Below are positions 841 to 20,959 of a stretch of DNA of 64,000 bases, piece after piece. The first letter of the stretch is position 1. The number at the start of each line of letters is the position of its first letter. The notes below the pieces were generated by a model, which saw only the letters and a program-made list of their open reading frames with translations, had not been told where the DNA came from and ran no database searches. The position numbers were made by a program, and so were the translations under genes. The DNA is from Candidatus Manganitrophus morganii (GTDB lineage Bacteria > Nitrospirota > Nitrospiria > SBBL01 > Manganitrophaceae): positions 3,782,001 to 3,846,000 of the forward strand of contig JAJHOH010000001.1 in assembly GCA_021651055.1 (NCBI GenBank), given 5' to 3'.

Positions 841-2262
841 ATGTACGGAGTGATACTGGCAGGGGGTAGTGGAACGCGCTTTTGGCCGCTCAGCCGGGAA
901 GAATACCCAAAGCAGCTCTTAAAGATCTTCGGCAATCATAGTCTTATTCAGGCCACCCTGGCCCGGATTACCGACCTGATCCCTTCCAATCAGACATATA
1001 TTGCCACCAACCCTTCCCAGGCGGAGCAGATCAAATTTCAGCTGAACCCTTCCCAAGAGGGGCCTCACTTTATCTATGAGCCGATGGGGAGGAACACGGC
1101 GGCGGCGATCGGTCTGGCGGCAACTTATTTACGCAAACGCTTTGAAGATGGCGTCATGGTGGTCCTCTCCGCGGATCACTTTATCAGGGAGCCGCACATT
1201 TTCGTTGAGGCGCTTCGTTTGGGAGAAGGTCTTGCCAACGAAGGCTATCTCGTGACCTTGGGCGCCAAGCCGACCCGCCCCGAGACCGGCTATGGCTATA
1301 TCCAAAAGGGAAAACCTTTTCCGAATCATCCCGGTGCATCGACCGTACAGCGCTTCGTTGAAAAACCGAACCGTGAAACCGCCGAACAGTATTTAAAAAG
1401 AGAAGATCACTTCTGGAATACGGGGATCTTCCTCTGGAAGATCTCAACGATTTTGGCGGAGATCAAGCAGTTTGTTCCTGAGCTGTCGGAGGGTTTGAAG
1501 GAAATTGAAGAGAAGATCGGAACGGCGGAGGAAGCGGAAGTGCTTGCACGCGTTTATCCGACGCTTCCCTCCATCTCGATCGACTATGCCGTTTTGGAGA
1601 AGTCGGATCGCCTCGCCGTGATCTCCACCGACATGGGGTGGGAAGATGTCGGCTCCTGGAGCGCGCTCGATGAAGTGATCCAACGAGACGGCAATGGGAA
1701 CATCCTCACGGGAAATGTCGTCAACATCGACAGCTCCAACAGCATCATCTACGGACAAAAGCGGGTTATTGCGGTGGTCGGCCTGAAAGACATTGTCGTG
1801 GCCGATACGGAGGATGCAACCCTCATCTGCTCGAAGGATAAGGCGCAGGAGGTCAAGAAGGTCGTTGAGGCGCTGAAAGGCCGCAACGGCGATGAACACC
1901 GCGTTCACAGAACGGTCATCCGCGCCTGGGGGAGCTACACCGTTCTGGAAGAGGGACGCGATTACAAAATCAAGCGGATTCTGGTCAATCCTCGGGCGCG
2001 TCTTTCCCTTCAAATGCATCATAAGCGGAGCGAGCATTGGGTTGTGGTCGCGGGAACGGCGCGGGTCACCTGCGGGGAGAGTGTTTATACCATTCAGGCC
2101 AACCAGAGCACCTTTGTCCCGATGGGGGTGAAGCATCGGCTGGAGAATCCGGGCGATGAGCCGCTCCAGATCATCGAGGTGCAGAGCGGGAATTATCTCG
2201 GAGAAGACGACATCGTCCGGTATCAGGATGATTACGGGCGAGTGGAGGCCAAAAAGGGCTAA
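841..2262 (+). CDS. manC: Mannose-1-phosphate guanylyltransferase / mannose-6-phosphate isomerase (bifunctional ManC/AlgA type)
   Basis: Makes GDP-mannose from mannose-1-phosphate and GTP, and in the bifunctional type also interconverts fructose-6-P and mannose-6-P. At 473 residues it has the usual length of the type II family. The N-terminal nucleotidyltransferase signature GGSGTRFWPLSREEYPKQ (residues 8-25) is intact, followed by the FVEKP substrate-binding motif. The C-terminal third is a cupin with a HHKRSEHW metal-binding segment, typical of the phosphomannose isomerase half. It is followed two bases later by a phosphomannomutase gene, so the two are surely co-transcribed. It heads the GDP-sugar supply for the whole surface-polysaccharide locus. 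Confidence 0.95.
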   Translation: MYGVILAGGSGTRFWPLSREEYPKQLLKIFGNHSLIQATLARITDLIPSNQTYIATNPSQAEQIKFQLNPSQEGPHFIYEPMGRNTAAAIGLAATYLRKRFEDGVMVVLSADHFIREPHIFVEALRLGEGLANEGYLVTLGAKPTRPETGYGYIQKGKPFPNHPGASTVQRFVEKPNRETAEQYLKREDHFWNTGIFLWKISTILAEIKQFVPELSEGLKEIEEKIGTAEEAEVLARVYPTLPSISIDYAVLEKSDRLAVISTDMGWEDVGSWSALDEVIQRDGNGNILTGNVVNIDSSNSIIYGQKRVIAVVGLKDIVVADTEDATLICSKDKAQEVKKVVEALKGRNGDEHRVHRTVIRAWGSYTVLEEGRDYKIKRILVNPRARLSLQMHHKRSEHWVVVAGTARVTCGESVYTIQANQSTFVPMGVKHRLENPGDEPLQIIEVQSGNYLGEDDIVRYQDDYGRVEAKKG

Positions 2263-2264
2263 CC

Positions 2265-5569
<3,305 letters not shown>

Positions 5570-5724: not shown

Positions 5725-6708
5725 ATGCCTGAAATATATACTGGAAATGGTATATTCCCATTTAGTGGAAAAAGAGTGTGGATTACGGGCCATCGTGGGA
5801 TGCTTGGGTCTGCTCTGGCTCGAAATTTTAGCAAAGAGGGAGCTCATTTATTGCTCGCCTCGCGTCAAGAACTTGATTTATGCAGCCAAAAATCCGTTTA
5901 CGATTGGATGGACAAGAATCGACCGGAGCTCATTTTTCATGTCGGGGCGAAGGTTGGGGGTATTTATGCGAATACCACTTTTCCCGCTGATTTTCTATAC
6001 AGTAATTTGATGATCCAAACGAATGTGATTCACGCCGCGCACCACTTTGGAGCCGAGAAGCTGGTTTTCGTTGCATCGAATTGTACCTATCCGACCATCG
6101 CGGCCCAGCCCATCTCCGAGGAGGCGCTGATGACCGGTCCACTGGAGGAGAACATTCGTTCGTATGCGATTGCCAAAATTGCGGGAATAGAGCTCTGCCG
6201 GGCATATCGCAAGCAGTACGGATGCAACTTCATTTCAGTGATCCCCCCCAATTTATACGGTCCGGGTGACAATTATCATCCCCAGCATGGCCATGTCGTT
6301 GCCGGCATCCTCCGCCGGGCCCATGAGGCGAAACTGGCCGGAAAAAAAGAATTGGTTGTCTGGGGCGACGGAACACCGAGACGGGAAGTATTGTATGTGG
6401 ACGATTTGGCCGACGCTATGAAATGCCTGATGGCCGCCTCGGTGAAGGACGATGTGTTCAATGTGGGATGCGGTCATGATCTATCCATTGCGGAATTGGC
6501 CCATTTGATTGCCGAAGTGATCGGTTTTGAGGGGCGCATTGTCTATGATAAGTCGAAGCCGAACGGAACGATGAGAAAGCTCCTTGACAGTTCCCGCATC
6601 CAGGCACTCGGCTGGCGCCCCAAGGTCGACGAAAAGACCGGATTGCAGAATGCCTATAATGATTTTCTGGCACGGCTCGAAACTCCTCAGCTTGGTGGGC
6701 GACTCTAA
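5725..6708 (+). CDS. fcl: GDP-L-fucose synthase (GDP-4-keto-6-deoxymannose 3,5-epimerase/4-reductase)
   Basis: Catalyses the epimerisation and NADPH-dependent reduction that turn the Gmd product into GDP-L-fucose. The 327-residue protein has TGHRGMLGSALARNF as nucleotide-binding motif, the ASNCTYP serine segment, the SYAIAK catalytic Tyr/Lys, and the PPNLYGPGDNYHPQHGHVV stretch diagnostic for this family. It is preceded by a non-coding gap of 155 bases. With gmd and the rmd-like gene, it means both a D-rhamnose and an L-fucose donor could be available to the locus. Confidence 0.93.
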   Translation: MPEIYTGNGIFPFSGKRVWITGHRGMLGSALARNFSKEGAHLLLASRQELDLCSQKSVYDWMDKNRPELIFHVGAKVGGIYANTTFPADFLYSNLMIQTNVIHAAHHFGAEKLVFVASNCTYPTIAAQPISEEALMTGPLEENIRSYAIAKIAGIELCRAYRKQYGCNFISVIPPNLYGPGDNYHPQHGHVVAGILRRAHEAKLAGKKELVVWGDGTPRREVLYVDDLADAMKCLMAASVKDDVFNVGCGHDLSIAELAHLIAEVIGFEGRIVYDKSKPNGTMRKLLDSSRIQALGWRPKVDEKTGLQNAYNDFLARLETPQLGGRL

Positions 6709-6842: not shown

Positions 6843-8843
6843 ATGGTTGAGGATTTTGTTTTGCCTGCGGGGCTCGTTGGGCGCTTCGCGGTAGTAAAGC
6901 TGTGGCCTGAGATCAAGACTGCGGAAGATGAGGTAATCGCGCGTCTGAAAATCGCGGCGGCCGCTCTCGGCCTGGAATGCATTGAGATTTATGCAGATGG
7001 TCGTCTCTTGGAGACTCCAGCCAACGTTATAACAAAAAAAGATGTCGATTTCGTTTTTCATCTTCATTATGACACGCCAAAACTCTATGATGTTTTTTCA
7101 TTTGTGGCACTGTGGAATCCCATCCAGTTTTATCACGAATGGGGTTATCAACGCTGCTCGCGGAATCTGCTGACACATGATGATTTTGTAAGCTGCGGTT
7201 CTCCTGCTGCCGACGACCATGTCGGCCGTATGGTGCGAAGGGCCGCAACGCATCTGTCCCCTCTCTTCAACCTATATCATTCAGTCGCGGATATTGTTCA
7301 TCCGCCGTCACTGGGAGACCATAAACTTTTCTATGCTGGAATAAACTGGGAGGCTCTCGGTGGCGGGAGATCCCGCCATCAGGATTTGCTAAAATCCTTA
7401 GATCATACTGGCGTTCTCCGGATTTACGGCCCGAGGATATTCCAGGGCGTGAAGGTCTGGGACGGATATGACAGCTATGTCCGGGAGATTCCATTTGACG
7501 GTGTTTCGATGATGGATGAAATCGCCAAAGCTGGTATCGCGCTGGTTTTGTCATCGCAAGCGCACAAGGACTCCGAGCTGATGTCGAGCCGTTTGTTCGA
7601 GAGCGTGGCTGCCGGAGCGCTTGTCATTTGCGATGAAAATAACTTCTCTAAGAAGTTTTTCGGCGACTCTTTGCTATACATTGACACCCGATGGTCCGCC
7701 GACAGAATCTGCGATGACATATTAAAACATCTTGCTTGGGCAAAAAAGAATCACGATGAAGCCCTCGGAATGGTAGCGAAAGCACAGGATATATTTAGAA
7801 CGAAGTTCACTTTTAAGAAAAATCTGAAGGATCTGTATCTCGGATTTTCAGATCGGAAGCTTAAGCTCCTTAATCGTCAATGTCCAGAGGAGAGGAGAAT
7901 CAACGTTCGTTTAAACCTTCTAATGCCGGAATATTCGGATGCCATTCTTAATGCGCATATCGCCAGCGTGGTTACTCAGGAATACACCGATTTTTCTCCA
8001 ATCCTAATTATCGACAAAACTGCGGCGAGCGAAAACCAGTCTTGCATTAAAGCGGTTCTTTCAAAATTGAGAATGCCGATTGATGTGCTGGAGGTCGATT
8101 TCTTTACCTATGATCGTAGTCGGGAGATTAGATCGAGACGCAGAGTCGGCGAGATCATCGGCGAGGTCTTGAAGCGGACCCCACAAACGGATGCCGTGGT
8201 ATTCGTCGCGCCGAATGAGAAAATATTTTCCAATCATCTTCAAGTCCTTGCGGGAAGTTTGGCACGGAACCCGGACAAGAACTGTGCAGCAACGGCTGCC
8301 ATTTTGAAACATGGAGATCAACCGATTCATAGCGTCCACGAGAGGATTGATTTCCGGCATCTTAATCCATCTGCACCGAATGGTTATGCACGTTTCATTT
8401 TCAGGGTTCTAGGGTTCCCAAAAGATTTGGGTCTGGCGCTGCCTCATCTGGATAGAAAGACGCTTGCTGTTTTAGTGGGTGAGAGCGTAATCAGCCAGGA
8501 AGTCCCATCAACCGTCGTTATTGATCTCGAGGATGAGTTTCCTTCCGGTCCTTGGAATGAGGGGCAAGAGAATGCCGTCATCAGCGATTTCTCACCATCC
8601 GCTTTCGCTACATACACCGGTTATGAGACGATCCTGCCGCCTTTACCCCCTCCGGTTAGCGTATCTTGGCGCATCATGCAATTATTGCGTTTGATCGTAG
8701 CTCAGGCACGCGCACAGCGCAGACGGGGCCTCGCGCAACTGCTACGCTTGGTTATCGCTCAGGCTCGAATACTACGCAGGGAGGGCCTGGCGGCACGGCT
8801 CATTGTTTTGAAAAGGAAGCTCAGAAAGAAGTTGACTGAGTAA
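6843..8843 (+). CDS. Large two-domain glycosyltransferase with amphipathic C-terminal helices
   Basis: 666 residues, probably a peripheral membrane glycosyltransferase. Residues of about 1-345 look like a CgeB/GT4-related domain: the segment SSRLFESVAAGALVICD is the conserved donor-binding turn of Glyco_trans_1_2 proteins. Residues of about 355-590 resemble a GT-A-type domain (a strand-turn with 'HIASVVTQEYTDFSPILIID'), though its DXD motif is not obvious. The last 55 residues consist of two similar Arg/Leu-rich helices (LLRLIVAQAR and LLRLVIAQAR) followed by a Lys-rich end, suited to membrane attachment. It precedes the ABC exporter genes by 33 bases, so a role in building the exported glycan is likely. 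Specific linkage unknown. Confidence 0.65.
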   Translation: MVEDFVLPAGLVGRFAVVKLWPEIKTAEDEVIARLKIAAAALGLECIEIYADGRLLETPANVITKKDVDFVFHLHYDTPKLYDVFSFVALWNPIQFYHEWGYQRCSRNLLTHDDFVSCGSPAADDHVGRMVRRAATHLSPLFNLYHSVADIVHPPSLGDHKLFYAGINWEALGGGRSRHQDLLKSLDHTGVLRIYGPRIFQGVKVWDGYDSYVREIPFDGVSMMDEIAKAGIALVLSSQAHKDSELMSSRLFESVAAGALVICDENNFSKKFFGDSLLYIDTRWSADRICDDILKHLAWAKKNHDEALGMVAKAQDIFRTKFTFKKNLKDLYLGFSDRKLKLLNRQCPEERRINVRLNLLMPEYSDAILNAHIASVVTQEYTDFSPILIIDKTAASENQSCIKAVLSKLRMPIDVLEVDFFTYDRSREIRSRRRVGEIIGEVLKRTPQTDAVVFVAPNEKIFSNHLQVLAGSLARNPDKNCAATAAILKHGDQPIHSVHERIDFRHLNPSAPNGYARFIFRVLGFPKDLGLALPHLDRKTLAVLVGESVISQEVPSTVVIDLEDEFPSGPWNEGQENAVISDFSPSAFATYTGYETILPPLPPPVSVSWRIMQLLRLIVAQARAQRRRGLAQLLRLVIAQARILRREGLAARLIVLKRKLRKKLTE

Positions 8844-8876: not shown

Positions 8877-9707
8877 ATGAATCCCCACGTTGCACCCCCT
8901 ATTTCTCTAATTTCATTGGTCAGCAGTTTACAGCGTAATCGTCAGCTCATTTTTCAAATGATAAAACGTGAAGTGGTCGGTCGCTACAAAGGTTCTGCCA
9001 TTGGACTGCTGTGGTCCCTTTTTAATCCGATATTCATGCTGGTGATGTACACATTTGTTTTCTCTGTTGTGTTCAAAGCCCGTTGGGGTATCGGTGGGGA
9101 AGAAACAAAAACTAAGTTCGCCGTAGTGCTGTTTGTGGGCATGATCGTGCATAGTCTGTTTTCTGAAGTTCTCAACCGCGCTCCGGGATTGATTCTTAAT
9201 AATGTCAGCTACGTCAAAAAGATTGTCTTTCCCCTGGAAATCCTGCCGGTTATCAGCATGGGAGCTGCGTTATTCCATAGTCTGGTCAATCTATTTGTAC
9301 TGTCTATCGCTCTCATCATCCTCAATGGTTCCTTTTACTGGACAGCTATTTTCATGCCGTTGGTGTTACTTCCCTTCGTCGCGCTCACATTAGGTTTCGC
9401 TTGGGTCCTTGCATCTTTGAGCGTATTTTTGCGGGATGTAGGGCAAGCGATTGGATTTGCAATGACGGTTATGATATTCTTTTCCCCTGTTTTTTACCCG
9501 ACTTCGGCTTTGCCTGAAGACTTGCGTCCCTGGCTGATGATTAACCCGCTCACATTTATCATTGAGCAGGCCCGCTCGGTTCTTATTTTTGGCCAATTAC
9601 CGAATTGGGCCGGTTTGACAGTTTACAGCTTGATTTCGATCCTCGTGGCTTGGATGGGGTATGCCTGGTTCCAAAAAACCAGAAAGGGATTTGCCAATGT
9701 CCTTTAA
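8877..9707 (+). CDS. wzm: O-antigen/polysaccharide ABC exporter, permease subunit
   Basis: Inner-membrane half of an ABC-2 type transporter that moves undecaprenyl-linked polysaccharide across the membrane. The 276-residue protein has the N-terminal signature 'REVVGRYKGSAIGLLWSLF' of Wzm/TagG/KpsM-like permeases and about six hydrophobic segments, ending in a short cytoplasmic tail. The ATPase gene follows with an 11-base overlap. ABC-dependent export implies the glycan is completed in the cytoplasm, unlike Wzy-dependent systems; no wzx or wzy gene was found in this locus. Confidence 0.93.
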   Translation: MNPHVAPPISLISLVSSLQRNRQLIFQMIKREVVGRYKGSAIGLLWSLFNPIFMLVMYTFVFSVVFKARWGIGGEETKTKFAVVLFVGMIVHSLFSEVLNRAPGLILNNVSYVKKIVFPLEILPVISMGAALFHSLVNLFVLSIALIILNGSFYWTAIFMPLVLLPFVALTLGFAWVLASLSVFLRDVGQAIGFAMTVMIFFSPVFYPTSALPEDLRPWLMINPLTFIIEQARSVLIFGQLPNWAGLTVYSLISILVAWMGYAWFQKTRKGFANVL

Positions 9708-11103
9708 TGATGTCGTCATCCGAGTAGAAGAAATTTCCAAGCGCTTTGAACTCTACGATTCTCCTCGCGATCAGCTAAAACAGTTTATCTTTCCCAAGCT
9801 TCAACATTTCATCGGAATGGATCCGAAACGGTATTTCCGTGAATTCTGGGCGCTCAAGAACATCTCTTTTGAGGTCAGGAAGGGAGAGTCCGTCGGCATC
9901 ATCGGACGAAACGGCAGCGGGAAAAGCACGTTACTGCAAATCATTACGGGGACACTTGCGCCGACAACGGGTACAGTGACGACGAATGGACGAATTGCCG
10001 CCTTGCTGGAATTGGGTTCCGGCTTTAATCCCGAATTCTCCGGGCGTGAGAATGTTTATCTCAATGGTGCGTTGCTTGGATTCAGCAAAGAGCAAATGGA
10101 CATTAAATTTGACGCGATTGCCGCATTTGCGGATATTGGTGAGCATTTGGATCAGCCGGTCAAGACTTATTCCAGCGGCATGCTTGTTCGTCTTGCCTTT
10201 GCCGTTCAAGTGCAGGTTGAACCTGACATCTTGATCGTCGACGAGGCGCTTGCAGTTGGTGACGCGTTATTCCAGAAGCGGTGTTTTCAACAACTTGAAA
10301 AATTGGTCAATAATGGTACGACATTATTATTTGTGTCTCACGATCAGGAAAGCGTCAGAACATTGACCAGTCGTGCACTCCTCTTGAATAGGGGGGTAGC
10401 CGTCGAATGGGGGCTATCTTCGGAGGTGATACTTGAATATCGTCGGCTATTACACGATGAGGAGTCCGTGTATTTCAGCGCCGCCGTAAAGGATATAGCG
10501 GCACGAAGGCGCGCTGTAAAAGCCACAGAATCTTTAGAGGTGGGCAGCGCTTCGCAGGCGTCAGTCGCAGTTGATCCCTGTTCAATACAAAATGCAATTG
10601 GTGCGCGACCTGATCGTCTTTCATTTGGCGAAGGCATAGTGAAGATCATACGAGTGGAAACACTAGATTCCGAAGGTAATCCGTGCTTAGTATATTACCC
10701 AGGAGAGCGATTGCGCATCAGAATCGTATGCGAAGCGCAGGCGGACATTGATAAATTGAATATCGCCATAAGACTCCGCAATAAAGAAGGAGTCAAGATT
10801 TACTCGTGGGGCACACTCAATCAGGATATAAGTATTCTGGCGGCCAATTCGGTAGAGCCAGTTTTTTGGAGCCGACAAATCAAAGCGTGCGAGCAATTTA
10901 ACGTTTTATTCGAATGCGCCTGTAGCCTGGGAACCAATCTTTACGAGGTGCAGGCTGCAGTTTCATTTGAAGAAACGCCGGATTATATATCACAGCGCGT
11001 GTTACATTGGGTGGATGAAGCAGCTTTCTTTCAAGTTCTAATGAAGAAGAATGAGCATTTTTTCGGCGGTGTGGTTGACCTCAAAATGAAGGCGACATGG
11101 TGA
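9697..11103 (+). CDS. wzt: O-antigen ABC exporter ATPase with C-terminal glycan-binding domain
   Basis: Energises polysaccharide export together with the permease. Walker A is GRNGSGKST, the ABC signature is YSSGMLVRLAF and Walker B is ILIVDEALAVGD. After the ~240-residue ATPase, residues of about 310-465 form an extra beta-rich region matching the position and length of the Wzt C-terminal domain, which in E. coli O8/O9a recognises the modified end of the glycan. An in-frame ATG exists 36 bases upstream, but the ATG at 9697 has AAGGGA at a good distance and matches the family N-terminus, giving 468 residues. The stop overlaps the next gene's start. Confidence 0.93.
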   Translation: MSFNDVVIRVEEISKRFELYDSPRDQLKQFIFPKLQHFIGMDPKRYFREFWALKNISFEVRKGESVGIIGRNGSGKSTLLQIITGTLAPTTGTVTTNGRIAALLELGSGFNPEFSGRENVYLNGALLGFSKEQMDIKFDAIAAFADIGEHLDQPVKTYSSGMLVRLAFAVQVQVEPDILIVDEALAVGDALFQKRCFQQLEKLVNNGTTLLFVSHDQESVRTLTSRALLLNRGVAVEWGLSSEVILEYRRLLHDEESVYFSAAVKDIAARRRAVKATESLEVGSASQASVAVDPCSIQNAIGARPDRLSFGEGIVKIIRVETLDSEGNPCLVYYPGERLRIRIVCEAQADIDKLNIAIRLRNKEGVKIYSWGTLNQDISILAANSVEPVFWSRQIKACEQFNVLFECACSLGTNLYEVQAAVSFEETPDYISQRVLHWVDEAAFFQVLMKKNEHFFGGVVDLKMKATW

Positions 11104-13421
11104 CTGAACCTAATTATAGCGCAGAGTATGATAATTACTGGACCCGGAGGGATCGTATCGGTGAATCCAGTGGCAATCTTGAACTAACAGCAGATCAAAT
11201 TGTCATGATTTGTGGTTTCGGCAGCATTCTTGATATTGGTTCAGGAGAAGGGGCTTTAGTAGCTGCACTGTTGCGTCGTGGTCTAGACGCGTATGGTCTG
11301 GATGTATCGAGGGTTGTCGTGTCGCGTTGCCAAAAAAGGATGCCTGGACGATTTAGTCTTGGATCAGTTCTCTATATCCCATTTAGAGATAGCTCCTTTC
11401 ATACTGTGGTAACCACTGATTGTATGGAGCACCTTACGCCTGAGGATGTGCCGAAAGCACTTCAGGAAATTCGCCGTGTTGCAGGGCGCTATGTTTTTCT
11501 TAAGCTTGCGACGATCCGGGATCGGGATGATCATTGGCATTTAACGGTTGAGAAACGAGCGTGGTGGGAGGCGAGGTGTTTTGAAGCCGGCTTTCGTAAG
11601 CATCCCGGTTATTACAGGATTAACGACTATGAGTCACTGAATCAAGATGGATGGCAGATTGTAATTCCTTTAGAAAAAACTCCAGAAAAGGTTTTAATAA
11701 GCTATCCGTTGGCATCCCTAAATGAAGAGCGTGGCTTGCATATGGACATGTTGCGCGATTCCGGGGAGCGTTCGGATGCTCACGTAATTCGATATCAGTG
11801 GGCATGTGACTACATTAAACCTGGTGATCGTGTCCTGGATGCGGCATGCGGTCTCGGCTATGGCAGCCATGTTATTCAGTATATGACACAAGCCGAAAAG
11901 ATTGTGGGGTTTGATGGTAGTGAATACGCAGTCAACTACGCGACCCAATCGTTTGCATATGAGAACGGACAAGTGGAGTATCTCTGGGGCATATTGCCCG
12001 ATGCTCTTTCATCTTATAAGGATGGTTCCTTCGATGTCATCGTATCTTTTGAGACACTAGAACACGTCGCAGATCCTCCAGCCCTTTTGAAGGAATTCCA
12101 CCGCCTCCTTTCTCCTGGTGGCCGAATTATCGTAAGCGTTCCCAACAATTGGAGTGATGAAACCGGAAGAGATCCGAACCCTTATCACCTTCACGTGTAT
12201 GACTGGACGAGATTACAGGGTGAACTTGCGTCGCATTTTGTTTTGGAGGAAGCTTTTGCCCAGACGGCAAGCCGGTGTAAAAACTCCCACAACGGGAATC
12301 AGTGGGAGACACGGCCTAGATCATTTCGAAAGGTGGCCATTACCGAGCAGGTTCCAGCGGATTGCGAATGGTGGTTGATGGTGGCAATGAAATCGCCGTT
12401 GGGTACAACTCAAGATTACCAAGAGCGTATGTTTCATAATATTGCTCATGCCGGACATGCGTCGATTCGTTACGCTGAGTCATACCAAAATCCATGGTTG
12501 ATGCACGCCATGGTGAATGTAGGGTATCGATTGAAGCGTGTGGATGCCCTGGAAAAACTGGCCTCTGAAGTGATGTCGGTTTCGCCGAAGAATTCGAGCG
12601 ATTATGCCGCAGCGCTTTCCGTAAAGGCGTATCGCGTTCTTGAGCGGTGTTTTGCGGAGGCGCTTGCGGTACGAGAGATCATCGGCTGCATCGATGTCGT
12701 TGTCGCCGATCCGCCGGAAGGCCCCATGGGGTTGCGTTGGCAGGTCTCTCTTCTTTTTGTTAAAGCGAAGCTTCTCCAGAGGGGGGGCCATCTGGAGCGG
12801 GCAAAGGCTACATTCGTGAAATGCGCCGGCTTGGATGTGCGTGGATTTGGAATCCATTTGGCCACCAAGACCACGGAGGCTTGGTTCAATGCCGGAAAGA
12901 TTGCATACTCACTGAGCGATAAAGAAGAAGCTCGATCGTATTGGGAGCGCGGCGTTGATTGCGGGAACATTTTATTGTCCGCATCTCTTGATGACATTTT
13001 AATCAATCGATCATTTCCGAACCGGTTTAACCATGGGGATGGGGTTCGTGAGTACACCGTGGCATGGGACAACATCGCCCGCTGTGCCAACGGGCTGCAT
13101 CTTCTTCGACGGGGAGGAGAACTGGATCCTGCCGCTTTGGAAAACTGTTTCCAGACGGAGTATTCCGTCGTCACCCAGGATTTGATTGAATGCCGTCGGC
13201 AACTGGTGGAACGGACGCGGGAACTGGTCGAGACGCGGGAGATTCTCTTGGAACGAACTGCGCTGCTGGAACAGAGCAGCAAAGGGGTGTCGGATCTGAC
13301 GCGGGAATTGGTTGAAACGCGGCAAACCCTGGTCGACCGCAGCAAGATGCTCGAAGAGATACGGAATTCTTTCCGCTATAGAATCAAAAATAAGTTGAAA
13401 ATATTTTTTAATAAGCTGTAA
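11097..13421 (+). CDS. Double SAM methyltransferase with C-terminal coiled coil (possible WbdD-like chain terminator/ruler)
   Basis: 774 residues. Two class I methyltransferase domains lie in tandem: motif I reads LDIGSGEGALVAALL in the first (from about residue 43) and LDAACGLGYGSHVIQ in the second (from about 245), each followed by the usual acidic motifs. A helical, TPR-like region follows (about 450-660), then a heptad-rich segment with near-repeats (RELVETREILLERT and RELVETRQTLVDRS), ending in a basic, hydrophobic helix. It starts within the last codons of wzt. In E. coli O8/O9a, a methyltransferase with a coiled coil caps the chain and sets its length; that job is inferred here from architecture and neighbourhood only. 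Confidence 0.75.
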   Translation: MVTEPNYSAEYDNYWTRRDRIGESSGNLELTADQIVMICGFGSILDIGSGEGALVAALLRRGLDAYGLDVSRVVVSRCQKRMPGRFSLGSVLYIPFRDSSFHTVVTTDCMEHLTPEDVPKALQEIRRVAGRYVFLKLATIRDRDDHWHLTVEKRAWWEARCFEAGFRKHPGYYRINDYESLNQDGWQIVIPLEKTPEKVLISYPLASLNEERGLHMDMLRDSGERSDAHVIRYQWACDYIKPGDRVLDAACGLGYGSHVIQYMTQAEKIVGFDGSEYAVNYATQSFAYENGQVEYLWGILPDALSSYKDGSFDVIVSFETLEHVADPPALLKEFHRLLSPGGRIIVSVPNNWSDETGRDPNPYHLHVYDWTRLQGELASHFVLEEAFAQTASRCKNSHNGNQWETRPRSFRKVAITEQVPADCEWWLMVAMKSPLGTTQDYQERMFHNIAHAGHASIRYAESYQNPWLMHAMVNVGYRLKRVDALEKLASEVMSVSPKNSSDYAAALSVKAYRVLERCFAEALAVREIIGCIDVVVADPPEGPMGLRWQVSLLFVKAKLLQRGGHLERAKATFVKCAGLDVRGFGIHLATKTTEAWFNAGKIAYSLSDKEEARSYWERGVDCGNILLSASLDDILINRSFPNRFNHGDGVREYTVAWDNIARCANGLHLLRRGGELDPAALENCFQTEYSVVTQDLIECRRQLVERTRELVETREILLERTALLEQSSKGVSDLTRELVETRQTLVDRSKMLEEIRNSFRYRIKNKLKIFFNKL

Positions 13422-13485
13422 TGGACTATAAAGTTCCAGGCATGGGCCCAATAGATGGGTATCAGAATAATAACAAGGATTTGCT

Positions 13486-16374
13486 TTGATCAAACATGCA
13501 GCCGTTGAAATGTCAATCGCCGCAGTGACTGCGCTCATTGCGCTCATTAAGCGGAACAGAAGTTTTGCGCTTGCCATTGCAATGACGGCAATTTTTTACC
13601 TGCCAGCATTAAGGAACGGGTCGGTCGACGCTGGGTTTCTCTATGGGGGAGACACCCTCGGTTGGTATTTACCGGCATTGGCCAAAACACAGATGCTGAT
13701 CCATTCATTTAATTTCACGGCGATCGACTTCTCCTCATATAACGGCAGTTCCGACTTTTTTCTGAGCCCCAACTTCTTCGCCTATCATCCATTTGTCGTG
13801 ATCTACAGTTTGCTGGCGGCGCCGGAAACAACGACGCGGCAAGATCTCGGCCGCTTTTTGGTGTTGATGTTTGCGGCACATTCCTTTCTTGCGTGCTATT
13901 TTTCTTTAAAACTGTTCACCCGTTTCTTTTCTTTTGAATTCGGCCCCGCCGCACTGATTGCCGCCATATTCGCATTCAGCCTATACATGATGAATTCGCT
14001 TACACAACCATCGTTTCTCCTTTGTGCAACGATTATTCCCTGGGCCGCATACAGTGCTTTGGCCTATAGTGAGGGACCCAATCTCCGGCGGCTCGTATTC
14101 GCCTGTTTGCCTGTCGTGATCGGTTTTATGGGAGGGTATATGCCTCTCGGCGTTGCCTGTCTGGCTCTGTCGGCCGGTTTGGTCGCGGCGAAGCTACTTG
14201 TGATCGATGATTCAATCTCACTTGATGAACGGGTGCGTGCGTTATTTTTTGCCGCTACTCCCTATCTTTGCGCATCGCTGATCGTGTCGCCTTATTTATA
14301 TGCAGTTTATAAATTTCATAAGGAAACAACGAGTGTTAATGTAGTATCGCTTTTTTATAGTGCGTATCAACTGGCGGAGCTGCCGCAAACTTTTCTGAGG
14401 CTCATTTCCTCTCATTTTGACGTTCCGGGACCGAGCTATGAGTTTTCTTTGGCCTGGGGTCTTATTGCCATCACGACCGCCGCTATTTTTATTCTCAGTC
14501 CCAAGACAATGACCGCGCTGACCGCGCGGGATTGGAAAATATTCAAAGTTTCCGCTTTCGTTTACTTTGCGGCTGTTTTGGCGATCTTCGGTCATTACAG
14601 CGTGGTTAGCGACTTGGTTTATTATCTGGTTCCCCAGGTGGGGAAGATGCATATTTATCAGCGCTTTTTGCTCCCCACGTATCTGCTATTTGCTGTGATG
14701 GTTGCCCTGATGCTTAAAGCGTTAGTCCAAGTGCGCCCTCCGGTTGCGTTAAGAGTTGTTCTGACCATCCTTGTGGTTGCCACCCTCGTGGCTGCATACA
14801 TCGTGAGCCGTAATCCTGTCTTGGCGAAGGAAATGGGGCTGAACAACTATCTGATCTTTGAGCTGCTTCTGGCGTGTTTATTCGCTTTTACGCTTTTAAT
14901 CCCCGACGAAGCGTTCGTCTACGGCGTCGCAATTGTGCTATTTTGTCTTCCCCCCCTCGACCGCATGTATGACTTCTCTGTCGGCGGAAGTACCTTCGAG
15001 GAACAACGGAAACGGCAAGGAGTTATTTTAGATGAAGGGGAGAAAGCGCGGTTCGTCTCATACCTCAAACGCTTTGACGACAAGGAGGTCATAAAGTATG
15101 TCGACATCACCCCCATGTGGACCAAAGGCGGGGTGGAGACATTTCCAAAGGTCTTCCCCTATTATGTATTGAAAGATCTGCGACTGTCGTCCTACGGCGG
15201 TTTTACCTTCTATCTTTCCGCCCGGGCCGACTACATGCGAAGAATGCCGGTTATGGGAGAGGTCGCCGTCAGCCCGGATTGGGAAGTCATAGAGAATTCG
15301 GGCGCCGATTTTGTCGTTGCGCGCGAGTCGGACCTTGGGATCGGCGCTTTAGGCGCTCTGTTTACAAATATAAAAACCGATGAATTGTACAGGCTCCCGA
15401 ACGACGCCGTGGTCCTCCCTCTGCACACCCGGGCGGTAAAAGTGGCGTCATCTGACTCCATCATTTTCGACAACGGATATTTCAGGGCTTTTCCAAACGG
15501 AAATGAACCGAATAAGCTGGAAAATATCGCTCTGGGGAAACCTGCCAGGCAGAGTAGCAATGGCGGAGGGGAGGCAAGGCTGGCGGTCGACGGTAATACG
15601 AATGGGGACTATAACCTCGGCTCGGTTACCCATACCGGAGGTGAATCTCATTCCTGGCTTGAAATCGACTTAGGCGCTGTCGAGCCAATCGACAGCATAC
15701 GAGTTTGGAATAGAACCGATTGTTGCGGATTTCGGCTCAACAATTACTGGATATTTATTTCGGAAATCCCCTTTTTACCGAGCGATACAGCCTCCGAACT
15801 GCGGACGAGGCCAGCAACCTGGAGCAAAGTGAATTTTACCCCCAATCCTAAGGGCACGATAAAGACAGGGGGAGTGCGCGGCAGATATATTCGCGTTCAA
15901 CTGAGTGGGACGTCTACCGACCAAGGCTTCCTGAGCCTTGCGGAGGTGGAGGTTTTTCGTTCTGCTCAGGTGCCGGTCGCGGCTTCTGTGCCCGCTTCCG
16001 TAAAACTATCCGACTTGAAAGTGAGGGAATTTGCAACCGATCATGCGAGCTATCTACGCCTCGACCTCGAATCATCCTCGCCGACCACTGTACAGTACCT
16101 GTTTTGGCATAATCCAAGACTCAGATATTATCTAAACGGAAAACGGGTGAAATGGGTCGAGCAGGATGGATTACGCACCCTTTCAGTCCCCGCCGGACGC
16201 AATCTGCTTGAGATCAGATACCGGCACTGGCCCTTGACTGGATTCTGGATTCTTTATACCATATACGGGCTGATTTTCCTGTGGGCCTTAATGCCGACTG
16301 AATTCCGGACCGGCGTCTGGCGAAAGTTACGGTGGCCTCGGTCAATGGAAAGTCGGCCGGGAGAAATAAGCTGA
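13486..16374 (+). CDS. YfhO/GT-C-like polytopic membrane protein carrying an F-type lectin (fucolectin) domain
   Basis: 962 residues, TTG start with AAGGA six bases upstream. Residues of about 30-510 contain many hydrophobic segments with an early 'GGDTLGWYLPALAK' loop, as in YfhO-like GT-C membrane glycosyltransferases. After a soluble periplasmic stretch comes an F5/8-type fold (about 676-830) beginning NIALGKPARQSS. Inside it, His716, Arg743, Asp745 and Arg750 satisfy the F-type lectin fucose motif HX26RXDX4R exactly. A further beta-rich segment and a final hydrophobic helix (about 915-940) follow. Likely acts at the periplasmic face on a lipid-linked sugar; the lectin suggests recognition of fucosylated glycan, consistent with GDP-L-fucose synthesis nearby. 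Confidence 0.75.
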   Translation: MIKHAAVEMSIAAVTALIALIKRNRSFALAIAMTAIFYLPALRNGSVDAGFLYGGDTLGWYLPALAKTQMLIHSFNFTAIDFSSYNGSSDFFLSPNFFAYHPFVVIYSLLAAPETTTRQDLGRFLVLMFAAHSFLACYFSLKLFTRFFSFEFGPAALIAAIFAFSLYMMNSLTQPSFLLCATIIPWAAYSALAYSEGPNLRRLVFACLPVVIGFMGGYMPLGVACLALSAGLVAAKLLVIDDSISLDERVRALFFAATPYLCASLIVSPYLYAVYKFHKETTSVNVVSLFYSAYQLAELPQTFLRLISSHFDVPGPSYEFSLAWGLIAITTAAIFILSPKTMTALTARDWKIFKVSAFVYFAAVLAIFGHYSVVSDLVYYLVPQVGKMHIYQRFLLPTYLLFAVMVALMLKALVQVRPPVALRVVLTILVVATLVAAYIVSRNPVLAKEMGLNNYLIFELLLACLFAFTLLIPDEAFVYGVAIVLFCLPPLDRMYDFSVGGSTFEEQRKRQGVILDEGEKARFVSYLKRFDDKEVIKYVDITPMWTKGGVETFPKVFPYYVLKDLRLSSYGGFTFYLSARADYMRRMPVMGEVAVSPDWEVIENSGADFVVARESDLGIGALGALFTNIKTDELYRLPNDAVVLPLHTRAVKVASSDSIIFDNGYFRAFPNGNEPNKLENIALGKPARQSSNGGGEARLAVDGNTNGDYNLGSVTHTGGESHSWLEIDLGAVEPIDSIRVWNRTDCCGFRLNNYWIFISEIPFLPSDTASELRTRPATWSKVNFTPNPKGTIKTGGVRGRYIRVQLSGTSTDQGFLSLAEVEVFRSAQVPVAASVPASVKLSDLKVREFATDHASYLRLDLESSSPTTVQYLFWHNPRLRYYLNGKRVKWVEQDGLRTLSVPAGRNLLEIRYRHWPLTGFWILYTIYGLIFLWALMPTEFRTGVWRKLRWPRSMESRPGEIS

Positions 16375-16389
16375 GTCATTGGGGGTGTA

Positions 16390-17388
16390 ATGGAGCTCAA
16401 GAACAAAAAAGTACTGGTGACCGGGGCTGATGGATTCATCGGCAGCCATTTAGTGGAGGCGTTGCTGGATCGCGGCTGTGATGTCAGGGCATTTGTTTTT
16501 TATAACTCTTTCAATAGCTGGGGTTGGCTGGATACATTGTCAGCGGAGAAGTTAAAGTCTCTCGATGTTTTCTCCGGGGACATTCGCGATCCAAATGGCG
16601 TTTCGCAAGCGATGAAAGGGTACGACGTCGTCTTTCACCTGGCGGCCCTGATCGCTATACCCTTTTCGTATCATTCGCCCGATTCATACGTCGATACCAA
16701 CATCAAGGGGACGCTGAATGTGCTGCAAGCGGCGCGTCAGCAAGGGACCGAGCGCGTCTTGGTAACTTCCACCTCCGAGGTTTACGGCACCGCACAATAC
16801 GCTCCCATAGATGAAAAACACCCGTTCCAAGGCCAATCGCCATACAGCGCCACCAAGATCGGCGCCGACCGCTTGGCCGAGTCGTTCTATCGTTCCTTTG
16901 AAACGCCCGTTGTGATCGTCCGCCCGTTTAATACGTATGGACCCCGTCAGTCCGCAAGAGCGGTCATTCCGACCGTGATTACCCAATTGCTATCGGGACA
17001 AATCGAATTGCGGCTTGGAAATCTGACGCCCACCCGTGATTTCAACTATGTTAAGGATACGGTCCAAGGGTTCATCGCATTGGCCGGGGCGGACGCCGCA
17101 ATCGGACAGGAAATCAATATCGCGACCGGTGAAGAGCATTCAATCGGCGATGTGGCGCAGATCTTGATTGCCGATCTGAACCCCGAAGCAAAAATTGTTG
17201 CCGACGAGGAGAGGCTCCGCCCGGAAGCCTCTGAAGTATACCGACTCATGGGCGATAACACCCGGATTACCACGCTTACCTCGTGGCGGCCGGGCCATGA
17301 CCTGAAGGCGGGATTGAGAGACACCATTCGTTGGTTCAAACAACCCGACAATCTCACTCGTTATAAGGCTTGGCTGTACAACATTTAA
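16390..17388 (+). CDS. NAD-dependent sugar-nucleotide 4,6-dehydratase, LegB-like
   Basis: Extended SDR of 332 residues. The N-terminus TGADGFIGSHLVEALLDRG is the NAD-binding motif, and the following 'YNSFNSWGWLD' block is characteristic of the LegB group of 4,6-dehydratases, which act on a GDP- or UDP-linked GlcNAc in legionaminic acid pathways. Catalytic residues appear as TSTSEVYG and SPYSATKIGAD, with RPFNTYGPRQSARAVIP further on. The remaining legionaminic acid genes are not in the window, so the final sugar is open. It forms a tight run with the nucleotidyltransferase and SDR genes downstream. Confidence 0.8.
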   Translation: MELKNKKVLVTGADGFIGSHLVEALLDRGCDVRAFVFYNSFNSWGWLDTLSAEKLKSLDVFSGDIRDPNGVSQAMKGYDVVFHLAALIAIPFSYHSPDSYVDTNIKGTLNVLQAARQQGTERVLVTSTSEVYGTAQYAPIDEKHPFQGQSPYSATKIGADRLAESFYRSFETPVVIVRPFNTYGPRQSARAVIPTVITQLLSGQIELRLGNLTPTRDFNYVKDTVQGFIALAGADAAIGQEINIATGEEHSIGDVAQILIADLNPEAKIVADEERLRPEASEVYRLMGDNTRITTLTSWRPGHDLKAGLRDTIRWFKQPDNLTRYKAWLYNI

Positions 17389-17401: not shown

Positions 17402-18115
17402 ATGAGAGCGATCATCCTGGCTGGTGGAAAGGGAACCCGACTGCGCCCTTATACGGCACTTATTCCTAAGCCGCTTGTGCCATTGGGTGGAAAGTACTCC
17501 ATTCTGGAAATTGTAATCATGCAGCTGGCCCGTTCGGGATTTACCCACGTTACGCTTGCCGTGAATCACCTGTCTAATCTGATTATGGCTTATTTTGGTG
17601 ACGGATCACGTCTAGGCGTGAAGCTTGATTACTCGCTTGAAGAGGGCGAACTGAGCACGATCGGCCCACTAACCCTGGTGAAGGATCTGCCGGAGAGTTT
17701 CCTCGTAATGAATGGGGATATCTTGTGCGACCTTAATTACCGGTCATTTTTTGAAACGCACGTTCGGAAAGGAAATCAGATTTCCGTCTCTGCATATCAT
17801 AGACAGGTTAAAATCGATTTCGGCGTATTGAAATACGATCAAGCGGGGCATTTGACCGAGTTTCAGGAGAAACCGAAATTTGATTTTGATGTCAGTATGG
17901 GGATCTATTGCATGAACCGCTCCGTGATTGATATTTTGCCGCGAGGGAAACCATATGGTTTTGATAATTTGATGGTCGATGGGTTGGCGAAAGGACAAAA
18001 AATCAACATTGAACCGTTCTCCGGATATTGGCTGGACATCGGTCGTCCTGATGACTATCAGTATGCTGATGAAAACTTTTTAGAGCTTGCCGATCAATTG
18101 GGAATTGCATTATGA
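17402..18115 (+). CDS. Sugar-phosphate nucleotidyltransferase
   Basis: 237 residues, single NTP_transferase domain. The signature LAGGKGTRLRPYTALIPKP is at the N-terminus; VMNGDILCDL carries the metal-binding Asp; FQEKP and YWLDIGRPDDY are the later substrate-site motifs. The protein activates a sugar-1-phosphate, most likely for the 4,6-dehydratase encoded just before it. Family resemblance is to GDP-mannose/GlcN-1-P guanylyltransferase-like enzymes, but base and sugar specificity cannot be read directly. AAGAGGAAACG upstream is a good ribosome binding site, and the stop overlaps the next start by four bases (ATGA). Confidence 0.85.
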   Translation: MRAIILAGGKGTRLRPYTALIPKPLVPLGGKYSILEIVIMQLARSGFTHVTLAVNHLSNLIMAYFGDGSRLGVKLDYSLEEGELSTIGPLTLVKDLPESFLVMNGDILCDLNYRSFFETHVRKGNQISVSAYHRQVKIDFGVLKYDQAGHLTEFQEKPKFDFDVSMGIYCMNRSVIDILPRGKPYGFDNLMVDGLAKGQKINIEPFSGYWLDIGRPDDYQYADENFLELADQLGIAL

Positions 18116-18984
18116 AGAAAGCACTGGTGACCGGAGGCACGGGTGCGCTCGGTCGGGCTGTTATTGCCAGGATGAAAAAGTTAGGAAGCTATGACATTAT
18201 TGCAGCAGGGAGGCAGTATCGAAACGATGATCCGTCCGGAATACGGTGCGACGTTCGCGACCCGGAACAGCTCTCAGCTGCTTTTGATCAAGCCAAACCG
18301 GACCTGGTACTCCATCTAGCGGCAACATTTTCCGGTGATCTTCCTGAAGCTTATTCAACCAATGTCGCCCCGGCGCAGCATATTCTGGATTGGGTGCAGC
18401 GCAAGGGTCTTAAGACCCGCATTATCTTAATCGGTTCTGCCGCTGAGTATGGCGTGGTTAGTCCGGTTGAAAATCCAATTCGGGAGGATCATGTATTAGC
18501 TCCTGTCTCGGTTTATGGGATCAGCAAGGCGTGGCAAACCCAGTTGCTGGGCCTTTATGCTTACCAAGGGGTGGAAGTGGTCTGTGCGCGCGTATTCAAC
18601 TTATACGGACCGGGGATATCCGACAGGTTGTTCGTCGGGCGCCTACAGCATCAGATTAATGAAGTTGTGGCGAGAAAGAGGTCGATCATCGATGTCGGGC
18701 CTCTATCAGCCATCCGGGATTACCTCTCCACAGACGAAGCAGCAACTCAGTTGCTCACGATCGCTGCTCTTGGAGTATCCGGCAGGGTCTACCACGTAGC
18801 CAGCGGCGTTCCCGTCACCGTGCGGGACATCCTGATGCGTCATCTGGAGGCGCATGGTTTAGATCTTTCTATTGTGCGGGAGGCACCCAGTTTATCTAAC
18901 CGCAACGGTTACGATGTGCCTGCAATTTTTGCCGACATGACAAAAACCAATCAATTGGAAACAGCAGGGGGGGGGAATGCCTAG
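18112..18984 (+). CDS. SDR-family sugar-nucleotide epimerase/reductase
   Basis: 290 residues, extended SDR. TGGTGALGRAV is the NAD(P)-binding motif, IGSAAEYG carries the catalytic Ser/Glu, SVYGISKAWQ holds the Tyr/Lys pair, and ARVFNLYGPG is the usual substrate-loop segment. It overlaps the nucleotidyltransferase by four bases and the following glycosyltransferase by eight, so the three proteins are translated as a coupled set. It probably finishes the sugar started by the 4,6-dehydratase, as a 4-reductase or epimerase; the exact reaction is unknown. The C-terminus ends in a short Gly-rich tail produced by a run of G bases. Confidence 0.8.
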   Translation: MKKALVTGGTGALGRAVIARMKKLGSYDIIAAGRQYRNDDPSGIRCDVRDPEQLSAAFDQAKPDLVLHLAATFSGDLPEAYSTNVAPAQHILDWVQRKGLKTRIILIGSAAEYGVVSPVENPIREDHVLAPVSVYGISKAWQTQLLGLYAYQGVEVVCARVFNLYGPGISDRLFVGRLQHQINEVVARKRSIIDVGPLSAIRDYLSTDEAATQLLTIAALGVSGRVYHVASGVPVTVRDILMRHLEAHGLDLSIVREAPSLSNRNGYDVPAIFADMTKTNQLETAGGGNA

Positions 18985-19933
18985 ACTGAAACTCACTATT
19001 GTCACCCCAGTCTTTAATGAAGAGGAAGTAATTTCTCACTTTTATACTCGTACCCGCCAGGTGCTGGACCAATTGGAAAACGTCGACTCGGATATCATTT
19101 TCGTGGTAGATCGATCCACCGACAAAACTCTTGATATCCTCAGGGGTATTGTTTCAATGGATTCTGCCTCAAAAGTCATTGCACTATCATCGCGGTTTGG
19201 CCATCAAATGTCGCTCCTTGCAGGAATCGAGAATGCTGCCGCTGCGGACGTGATCGTAATGATGGACAGCGACTTGCAACATCCGCCTGAATTGATTCCG
19301 AAGCTTCTCGCTGAGTTCTGTGCAGGCGCCGACGTGGTTTATACGATTCGGCGCGATACGGATGACATCGGTTTCTTCAGGCGAACGTTGGGAAACCTTT
19401 TTTACCGGCTGCTTGGGTTTCTCGCGCGCGTGCCGATCAATGCCAACGCTGCAGACTTTCGTCTTATCAGCCGCAGGGTTGCCCTTTCGCTCACAAACGA
19501 TTTTCAGGAACGCAACATGTTCCTTCGGGGCGTCTTTTCATGGATCGGCTTCCGGCAAACGAGCATCGAATATGTTGCCGAACGCCGCTTTGCGGGCGAG
19601 TCGAAATACTCGCTCTCCAGGATGCTACAGTTGGCCATGGCCGGCATCCTATCGTTTAGCACAAAGCCTTTATACATTGGTATTTTTGTCGGGGTGGGTT
19701 TTGCCGCTCTGGCATTATTTTTCATGTTGGGTACCGTCATCAGCTACTTCATCGATCGGAGCATCCCGAGTGGCTGGACAACAATTGTCACTTTGTTACT
19801 TCTTTTCAGTGGCGTGCAACTTATCGTAATTGGAATCATGGGTGCTTACATTGGCGGCATATACGAGGAAGTTAAAGGGCGCCCTCGCTATATTATTGAG
19901 GAGGTGATTTCTCGCCGTGCCGAATCGCGTTGA
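18977..19933 (+). CDS. GT2 polyprenyl-phosphate glycosyltransferase (GtrB/DPM1-like)
   Basis: 318 residues. N-terminal GT-A domain of the dolichol-phosphate-mannose-synthase type: VTPVFNEEEVISHF at the start, the acidic metal site MMDSDLQHPPELIP, and the FAGESKYSLSRMLQLA segment. Two hydrophobic helices near residues 235-260 and 270-300 anchor it, as in GtrB. The usual DDGSTD is altered to DRSTDKT, a departure worth noting. Such enzymes load a sugar onto undecaprenyl phosphate in the cytoplasm; a GtrA-like flippase gene lies about 660 bases downstream, matching the classic gtr module. Confidence 0.88.
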   Translation: MPRLKLTIVTPVFNEEEVISHFYTRTRQVLDQLENVDSDIIFVVDRSTDKTLDILRGIVSMDSASKVIALSSRFGHQMSLLAGIENAAAADVIVMMDSDLQHPPELIPKLLAEFCAGADVVYTIRRDTDDIGFFRRTLGNLFYRLLGFLARVPINANAADFRLISRRVALSLTNDFQERNMFLRGVFSWIGFRQTSIEYVAERRFAGESKYSLSRMLQLAMAGILSFSTKPLYIGIFVGVGFAALALFFMLGTVISYFIDRSIPSGWTTIVTLLLLFSGVQLIVIGIMGAYIGGIYEEVKGRPRYIIEEVISRRAESR

Positions 19934-20594
19934 TTTTGACAAGTACACCGGTAATTACAATCAACTCTTGCGGGAGAGTACAGGATTCTTCTCCAAGAAT
20001 GATGCATACTTTGCAAAATATAAAGTAGAGCTGATGAGATCCCACATTTCCAGACCGGTGAAAAGGATACTTGAATACGGTTGCGGGATTGGAAGAAATA
20101 TCCCATTCTTAAGAGAAGCTTTCCCGAAGGTCGAGATCATTGGTACGGATCTTTCTCGCGCGAGTCTCGAGATCGCTCGCCGGGATCAACCAGATGTTGC
20201 GTTTTTTGACGAGGGGGATGGGACGTTGAGTCCCGGAACGTTTGATCTGATTTTTGTGGCCGGCGTCTATCACCATATCCCGATTAGTGAACGGGGGAAT
20301 GTTTCTAATTTACTATATCAGCGCCTGGATTCGTCAGGGGATCTATTTATTTTCGAACATAACCCTTACAATCCGGTGACACGCCGGATTGTTTCAAATT
20401 GCCCATATGATGACGATGCCATTCTGGTGTTGCCGAGAGAATTGAGGCAATATCTAAAGTCAACGGGATTCAAATATCCGCGTACCGAGTACTGTTTGTT
20501 TTTCCCTCCAAGTTTTACAAGACTCGCTTGGTTGGAACCTAGACTTGGATGGTTCCCGTTCGGCGGCCAGTACTTCGTGCATGTTTCGAAGTGA
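19917..20594 (+). CDS. Class I SAM methyltransferase
   Basis: 225 residues, starting inside the end of the GtrB-like gene. Motif I is LEYGCGIGRNIPFLRE, followed by IIGTDLSRASLEIAR and the LIFVAGVYHHI motif IV region. The N-terminal 'FDKYTGNYNQLLRE' is typical of small sugar/lipid methyltransferases found in polysaccharide loci. It sits between the GtrB-like and GtrA-like genes, so it may methylate the lipid-linked sugar or its precursor. Substrate unknown. Confidence 0.82.
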   Translation: MPNRVDFDKYTGNYNQLLRESTGFFSKNDAYFAKYKVELMRSHISRPVKRILEYGCGIGRNIPFLREAFPKVEIIGTDLSRASLEIARRDQPDVAFFDEGDGTLSPGTFDLIFVAGVYHHIPISERGNVSNLLYQRLDSSGDLFIFEHNPYNPVTRRIVSNCPYDDDAILVLPRELRQYLKSTGFKYPRTEYCLFFPPSFTRLAWLEPRLGWFPFGGQYFVHVSK

Positions 20595-20959
20595 AGAGGC
20601 AATTTTCGAGATTTCTAGCAGTTGGGGTACTGAATACGCTGTTGGGTTACGCAGCCATATTCAGTTGTATGTATTTTTTTGGGGTGTCTCCCGAACTCAG
20701 TAATGTGTTCGGATACTCAACCGGACTGTTATTCTCCTTTACTTTGAATAGAACCTTTACATTCAAATCGACTAAACCGCCTTCTGGAGAAGTGGTCCGT
20801 TTTTTGGCAGTTTTTGCAGTCGCGTTTGGCGCAAATTTGGTGGTACTTTACCTGCTTGTGAAGGTATTCTTCGTTCATGAGGCGGTTAGCCAAATACTAG
20901 CCGGTATTGTTTATGTGGCATTCTCGTATTTTATGAATAAACACTTTGTTTTTCATTAA
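20591..20959 (+). CDS. GtrA-like membrane protein (putative polyprenyl-phosphate-sugar flippase)
   Basis: Small integral membrane protein with four hydrophobic helices and the N-terminal FLAVGVLNTLLGYA signature of the GtrA/DPMS-flippase family; SYFMNKHFVF is the characteristic C-terminus. The GTG at 20591 overlaps the previous stop as GTGA and yields 122 residues, the usual GtrA length; a farther upstream ATG at 20549 would add 14 residues not expected in this family. It would flip the undecaprenyl-phosphate sugar made by the GtrB-like enzyme to the periplasm. Confidence 0.85.
   Translation: MKRQFSRFLAVGVLNTLLGYAAIFSCMYFFGVSPELSNVFGYSTGLLFSFTLNRTFTFKSTKPPSGEVVRFLAVFAVAFGANLVVLYLLVKVFFVHEAVSQILAGIVYVAFSYFMNKHFVFH

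Follow-up and report, generated by a model that had tools for sequence, protein, structure and literature searches.

Results

Organization of the locus

The window analysed here is a stretch of 64,000 nucleotides from Candidatus Manganitrophus morganii. One of its open reading frames encodes a protein laid out as a predicted YfhO-type membrane core, a periplasmic domain into which an F-type lectin domain (FLD) is inserted, and a last transmembrane (TM) helix. This protein is referred to as FLD-GT-C. Its ORF starts with TTG, and AAGGA is found 6 nt upstream of this codon. The gene, its parts and its neighbors are listed in Table 1.

Table 1. Genes and domains in and around the FLD-GT-C locus, in window coordinates
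Feature	Position	Strand	Basis or remark
ManC, GDP-mannose synthesis	841..2262	+	TIGR01479, above cut-off
Phosphomannomutase (ManB-like)	2265..3608	+	
Gmd, GDP-mannose 4,6-dehydratase	3637..4611	+	TIGR01472, 445 bits, above cut-off
Fcl, GDP-L-fucose synthase	5725..6708	+	NF047922, 427 bits, below the 500-bit cut-off
Wzm, ABC exporter permease	8877..9707	+	PF01061
Wzt, ABC exporter ATPase with Wzt_C sugar-binding domain	9661..11103	+	PF00005, PF14524
Double methyltransferase, heptad-like C-terminus (weak heptad signal)	11097..13421	+	Possible chain terminator
FLD-GT-C protein, 962 aa	13486..16374	+	ORF; six homologs at 48-72% identity; hhalign against YfhO family
Multi-TM core, residues about 1-508	13486..15009	+	Hydropathy segments; invariance
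F-type lectin domain (FLD), residues about 678-826	15517..15963	+	Inserted within the YfhO periplasmic domain, with a piece on either side
Fucose motif H716-X26-R743-X-D745-X4-R750, including C746-C747	15631..15735	+	
C-terminal beta domain and last TM helix, residues about 843-940	16012..16308	+	Common to YfhO and the FLD-less paralog
LegB-type NDP-sugar 4,6-dehydratase, donor pathway candidate	16390..17388	+	TIGR04180, 498.5 bits, above cut-off
Sugar-1-phosphate nucleotidyltransferase, donor pathway candidate	17402..18115	+	
SDR-family sugar epimerase/reductase, donor pathway candidate	18112..18984	+	
GtrB-type polyprenyl-phosphate glycosyltransferase, GT2 with C-terminal TM helices	18977..19933	+	phmmer
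Methyltransferase	19917..20594	+	Between gtrB and gtrA, kept in relatives
GtrA-family putative flippase	20549..20959	+	PF04138, E 5.8e-25

Judged from its genes, the locus makes an ABC-exported polysaccharide, possibly with a terminator. The initial annotation had placed Gmd and GDP-L-fucose synthase in the same locus as FLD-GT-C, which is correct, and next to it, which is not: their genes lie 7-10 kb upstream and are not immediately adjacent, and the first gene downstream of FLD-GT-C resembles legB and is not gmd. The Wzt_C-bearing Wzt and the double methyltransferase (window 9661-13421) resemble an export system like that of E. coli O9a, which is coupled to a terminator. Farther along the window, positions 27759-29000 hold a cytochrome b-like ORF with a long C-terminal tail rich in His, Asp and Glu.

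The inserted domain as an F-type lectin

When the whole FLD-GT-C protein was compared with Pfam and NCBIfam, only F5/8 domains were obtained; PHROGs returned no match. The FLD is the sole PF00754 match in the 4.29-Mb genome. The HX26RXDX4(R/K) motif of F-type lectins is present exactly, at H716, R743, D745 and R750, just as the initial annotation had read it residue for residue. The cation motif h2DGx occurs as AVDGN (residues 700-704) and the contiguous Cys pair as C746-C747, both being features described for Anguilla agglutinin (PMC5712786).

The FLD sequence was searched against the PDB. At E <= 1e-10 only F-type lectins were found (3cqo, 1.1e-23; 2j22, 1.6e-20; 4gwi, 3.7e-19; 1k12, 2.8e-11), with nothing else below 0.1, and the alignment was colinear with the fucose-binding structures. 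Since the search returned F-type lectins only, the motif is no chance match, and such an origin was rejected. A model of the FLD, built from a 74-sequence alignment, reached a pLDDT of 92 and showed the F-type jellyroll fold. In Foldseek its eleven best matches were F-type lectins, lectinolysin (3lei) and 2j22 among them (E 3e-15 to 2e-12), and the top matches included complexes with fucose and Lewis antigens; TM scores by target length were 0.76-0.89 against single-domain F-type lectin chains. The comparison with Anguilla agglutinin that had been proposed as a check came out in favor of the lectin, 1k12 being among the best fold matches. CBM32 modules came behind (E 9e-10), and a generic CBM32/discoidin identity was rejected, as F-type lectins scored far better. 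Sequence and predicted fold together confirm that the FLD belongs to the true F-type lectins. Such lectins had been called rare in bacteria, which was overstated: a pattern scan gave 286 stretches encoding them in GTDB genomes.

Homologs and conservation of the motif

Six homologs keep the full architecture and span Nitrospirota, WOR-1 and Gammaproteobacteria. Their identities to FLD-GT-C are 72% (L006, Nitrospirota), 67% (L007, WOR-1), 56% (L008, Ectothiorhodospiraceae), 54% and 48% (L009 and L010, from one Proteobacteria MAG), and 48% (L011, Methylobacter). Wider searches with the GT-C core yielded the window's own genome only among 396 phylum genomes, and the L008 genome only in a 369-genome sample around it.

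The FLD could be a structural spacer or an oligomerisation module that does not bind fucose, like F-type relatives whose motif is lost. The fucose His is indeed missing from 21/74 related domains, nearly all of Acidobacteriota; in L008 a Cys replaces Arg750, though this locus has gmd and fcl; and the CysCys pair is absent from L007, L009 and L010. Against such a role, H716, R743 and D745 were found in all seven full-length FLD-GT-C proteins, down to 48% identity, and R750 in six of the seven. As the His has been lost in 21 of the 74 related domains, its conservation here is not automatic. The initial annotation had counted loss of the motif in all close homologs as evidence against itself, and no such loss was seen. 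Moreover, FLD identity equalled or exceeded that of the membrane core in every homolog, and omega relative to L006 was 0.13 for the FLD and 0.15 for the core, so that the FLD is under purifying selection no weaker than that on the core. A mere spacer is therefore improbable.

Among the related domains (L012-L038, mostly from the Bryobacterales MAG PMTT01), one Acidobacteriota MAG carries some twenty F-type-like domains in which RxDCCxxR is retained but the fucose His is lost (SVTATN), which suggests a changed ligand.

In the WOR-1 genome, a paralog of FLD-GT-C (L007:3-2201) can be aligned with residues 51-611 and 846-936, and what it lacks is exactly the FLD. The FLD is therefore a cassette that was inserted into the periplasmic region ahead of the last TM helix. 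The paralog sits in the same WOR-1 locus as the FLD-GT-C protein of L007 and has its own GtrB. It provides a natural comparison for FLD-GT-C. That locus (L091:1013-5544 and 9391-14637) has two three-component systems, in which one GT-C only bears a lectin domain.

Relationship of the membrane core to YfhO

FLD-GT-C had been labeled YfhO/GT-C-like from its letters. The Pfam family YfhO (PF09586) gave no direct match, and a profile search of the PDB, aimed at GT-C relatives, returned F-type lectins only. In the absence of a direct Pfam match, the evidence for a YfhO link comes from comparing profiles with profiles. When the family, with the FLD deleted, was aligned by hhalign to a profile of 18 YfhO-type full-length ORFs fetched from the phylum, an E value of 2.3e-22 over 656 columns was obtained, whereas five unrelated or polytopic control families gave E >= 0.2. 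With truncated YfhO ORFs only the C-terminal part had matched. The acidic residue of the first outer loop that marks YfhO-type GT-C proteins is present as Asp56 (GGDTLGWYLP), invariant in all homologs and in the FLD-less paralog. The label thus stands by profile comparison, though not by a direct Pfam match, and outside the FLD the protein is, on these alignments, a YfhO-type GT-C membrane protein and a predicted transferase. A full-length AlphaFold model from 7 sequences had a pLDDT of 48.5 and was discarded.

The tail after the last TM helix is basic (6 K/R, 3 D/E). This fits a cytoplasmic C-terminus, which would put the FLD on the periplasmic side of the inner membrane. Many bacterial FLDs sit in secreted glycosidases or toxins (PMC5712786), and the domain could accordingly be pictured as facing outward, where it would adhere to or sense fucosylated glycans of the environment or of a host and have no part in glycosyl transfer. 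With the location predicted from the last TM helix and the tail, and with biosynthetic partners, this picture is hardly credible; a secreted adhesin identity for FLD-GT-C was rejected.

GtrB and GtrA partners

Genes for a GtrB-type enzyme and a GtrA-family protein, the two gene partners of a GT-C in a three-component system, were found 2.6-4.2 kb downstream of FLD-GT-C; the initial annotation had overlooked this context. By phmmer the GtrB product matched 5ekp (sll0501) at E 5e-60 and the undecaprenyl-phosphate transferase 9hwj at 2.7e-36, and GtrA is the sole PF04138 match in the 4.29-Mb genome. As predicted from the genes, GtrB, GtrA and GT-C make up the usual trio for three-component glycosylation in the periplasm. 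Given that gtrB and gtrA are in the locus, periplasmic glycosylation would be the natural role of FLD-GT-C.

The association recurs in the relatives. A gtrB gene lies near FLD-GT-C in 5/6 related loci, the contig of the sixth being short, and gtrA, or a GtrA fused to FLD-GT-C, in 3/6. The order gtrB-methyltransferase-gtrA was seen around L007 and L008, and gtrB around L006 and L010. In L011, gtrB and the methyltransferase gene are present and GtrA is fused to the C-terminus of FLD-GT-C (L011:5919-9248); a fusion of this kind is a strong sign, at the level of sequence, that the two work together.

The donor genes do not vary with the GT-C. The LegB/nucleotidyltransferase/SDR cassette lies between GT-C and gtrB in the window, L006 and L008; in the latter two, LegB is 85-91% and GtrB 73-74% identical to that of the window. 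In L007, L010 and L011 the cassette was not found and GtrB is just 33-37% identical, despite the 67% identity of the L007 GT-C. GtrB similarity thus follows the legB cassette, not GT-C similarity.

These data bear on whether the FLD reads the donor or product side. The GT-C might transfer L-fucose itself, with GtrB using GDP-fucose, and the FLD might hold the newly added terminal fucose, aiding processivity or product release. In favor of this, the locus contains fcl, and GDP-sugars are the donors used by DPM1-type relatives of GtrB. In addition, the fucose that F-type lectins bind has its 3-OH and 4-OH free, as suits a terminal residue (PMC5712786). We consider this unlikely, as the legB/nucleotidyltransferase/SDR cassette tracks the GtrB subtype while FLD and fcl are constant. 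Because the donor side varies whereas the FLD persists, as do the fucose genes wherever the contigs permit a view of them, we infer that it is the acceptor that the FLD recognizes.

Linkage to the fucose genes

The window, L087, L088 and L089 each have a genuine fcl ortholog within the locus. In L091, gmd is at the contig end, and a search of this WOR-1 MAG for Fcl found none. L009 and L010 are on short contigs, and their MAG carries gmd-fcl on another contig. For comparison, 148 genomes of the phylum were sampled; their 28 other GtrA genes all had no Fcl within 20 kb, many of these control domains being in longer, apparently fused ORFs. The resulting linkage, 4/6 FLD-GT-C loci against 0/28, has a Fisher p of 3e-4 for samples that are unmatched. 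None of 70 other FLD loci had gmd, fcl, gtrB or gtrA nearby; most of these are not polysaccharide loci. The survey for co-occurrence with fcl that the initial annotation had suggested thus gave a divided answer. Linkage within the locus supports it, but co-occurrence at the level of genomes is weak evidence, because Fcl is present in 60 of the 148 phylum genomes (E <= 1e-90). The failure to find Fcl in the WOR-1 MAG counts against the fucose link.

GT-C enzymes act on many acceptors and enzyme-fused FLDs otherwise target glycans (PMC5712786, PMC8035078), so that FLD-GT-C may modify another target, such as lipid A-core, a glycoprotein or a glycolipid, with the FLD reading fucose there. We give little weight to this, since wzm/wzt, the GT family of 6843-8843 and fcl are co-located with FLD-GT-C in three other loci.

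A second membrane family with an FLD

Two polytopic membrane proteins that end in an FLD, L039:5901-8447 (Nitrospiraceae) and L052:5916-8453 (Gammaproteobacteria), are 49% identical to each other. Their membrane part has no detectable relation to the FLD-GT-C family and no clear match to YfhO. In a tree of FLDs, the FLD-GT-C and L039/L052 groups formed separate, well-supported clades. The L039 protein is flanked by gtrB, a methyltransferase gene and gtrA. The L052 protein has the motif intact; no gtr genes adjoin it and no Fcl was found in its genome, which speaks against the reading of the FLD as a docking module for fucose made by the locus. An intact motif in this family also argues against the FLD being a spacer. 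This second, unrelated membrane family with a similar FLD amounts to a built-in comparison. Between gtrA and the FLD protein of L039, an 830-aa polytopic protein (L039:3412-5904) matched YfhO weakly (hhalign E 0.0065) and is possibly another GT-C.

Discussion

Three-component periplasmic modification is familiar from Gtr O-antigen glucosylation (GtrA, GtrB and a serotype-specific Gtr), where the donor is undecaprenyl-phosphate glucose; we know of no lectin domain in the serotype-specific enzymes. CsbB/GtcA/YfhO teichoic-acid glycosylation likewise combines a GtrB-type GT-A enzyme, a GtrA-family flippase and a YfhO GT-C, but the acceptors are Gram-positive teichoic acids and no F-type lectin domain is reported (PMC8035078, PMC7389260); for staphylococcal YfhO a binding module is suspected (review PMC8035078).

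A close functional parallel is described in PMC11127046. ORF12 of Citrobacter youngae O1 is the GT-C of a three-component system that adds Ribf. As predicted for the FLD-GT-C locus, there is an ABC-exported O-polysaccharide, a Wzt CBM, a predicted chain terminator and a polyprenyl-P-sugar donor, and the GT-C has a periplasmic sugar-binding module, which was shown to bind the acceptor polysaccharide. Unlike the FLD, that module is C-terminal, with an immunoglobulin-like fold described as a CBM, and the sugar added is ribofuranose. The module was dispensable for activity under the conditions tested, and in the sections consulted no link is drawn between its specificity and a sugar made by the locus. 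EmbC and AftD of mycobacteria, as cited there, are also GT-C enzymes with CBMs contacting the acceptor polysaccharide, although they serve arabinan synthesis with other modules and another donor. A GT-C that reads sugar, offered at the outset as a new principle, therefore has precedents in EmbC, AftD and ORF12 (PMC11127046, PMC8035078).

What distinguishes FLD-GT-C is the lectin. The FLD shares fold, HX26RXDX4R, CysCys and the DGx cation motif with Anguilla agglutinin (1k12), SpX (2j22) and lectinolysin (3lei), but lectins of these types are soluble or secreted lectins, glycosidases and toxins, whereas here the domain is inserted in a polytopic predicted transferase. A literature search, outside which most subscription journals lay, found no F-type lectin domain described in a GT-C enzyme, and a fucose-lectin version of the GT-C module linked to fucose synthesis appears undescribed.

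Taken together, we consider it probable that FLD-GT-C serves as the transferase in a three-component system for glycosylation in the periplasm, docked by its FLD on the fucose-containing polysaccharide of the locus. GtrB would load undecaprenyl phosphate with a sugar that may come from the LegB pathway, and GtrA would carry the lipid-linked sugar to the periplasmic face. There the YfhO-type core would transfer it onto the polysaccharide exported by Wzm/Wzt. The FLD would bind alpha-L-fucose residues of that polysaccharide, their fucose being supplied by ManC-ManB-Gmd-Fcl, and so would dock the GT-C on its own acceptor. As F-type lectins hydrogen-bond the 3-OH, the 4-OH and the ring oxygen of fucose (PMC5712786), the fucose read by the FLD should be terminal or O2-linked.

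How GT-C enzymes of three-component systems recognize their acceptors is poorly understood; binding modules have been observed, but in most cases not what they bind. The FLD belongs to a family with a well-defined ligand, and genes for making that ligand lie in the same locus, which allows a specific, testable prediction of acceptor structure from sequence alone. As a tentative extension, on the doubtful side at present, decoration may be lectin-gated, the sugar being added only to chains that already show the locus-made fucose, and the two unrelated membrane families may have acquired FLDs for such gating. The initial annotation had offered decoration of fucosylated chains only as an example, which overstates the case, given that ORF12 is active without its module. 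If gating is true, one residue would have to be recognized on the periplasmic face before the next could be added there.
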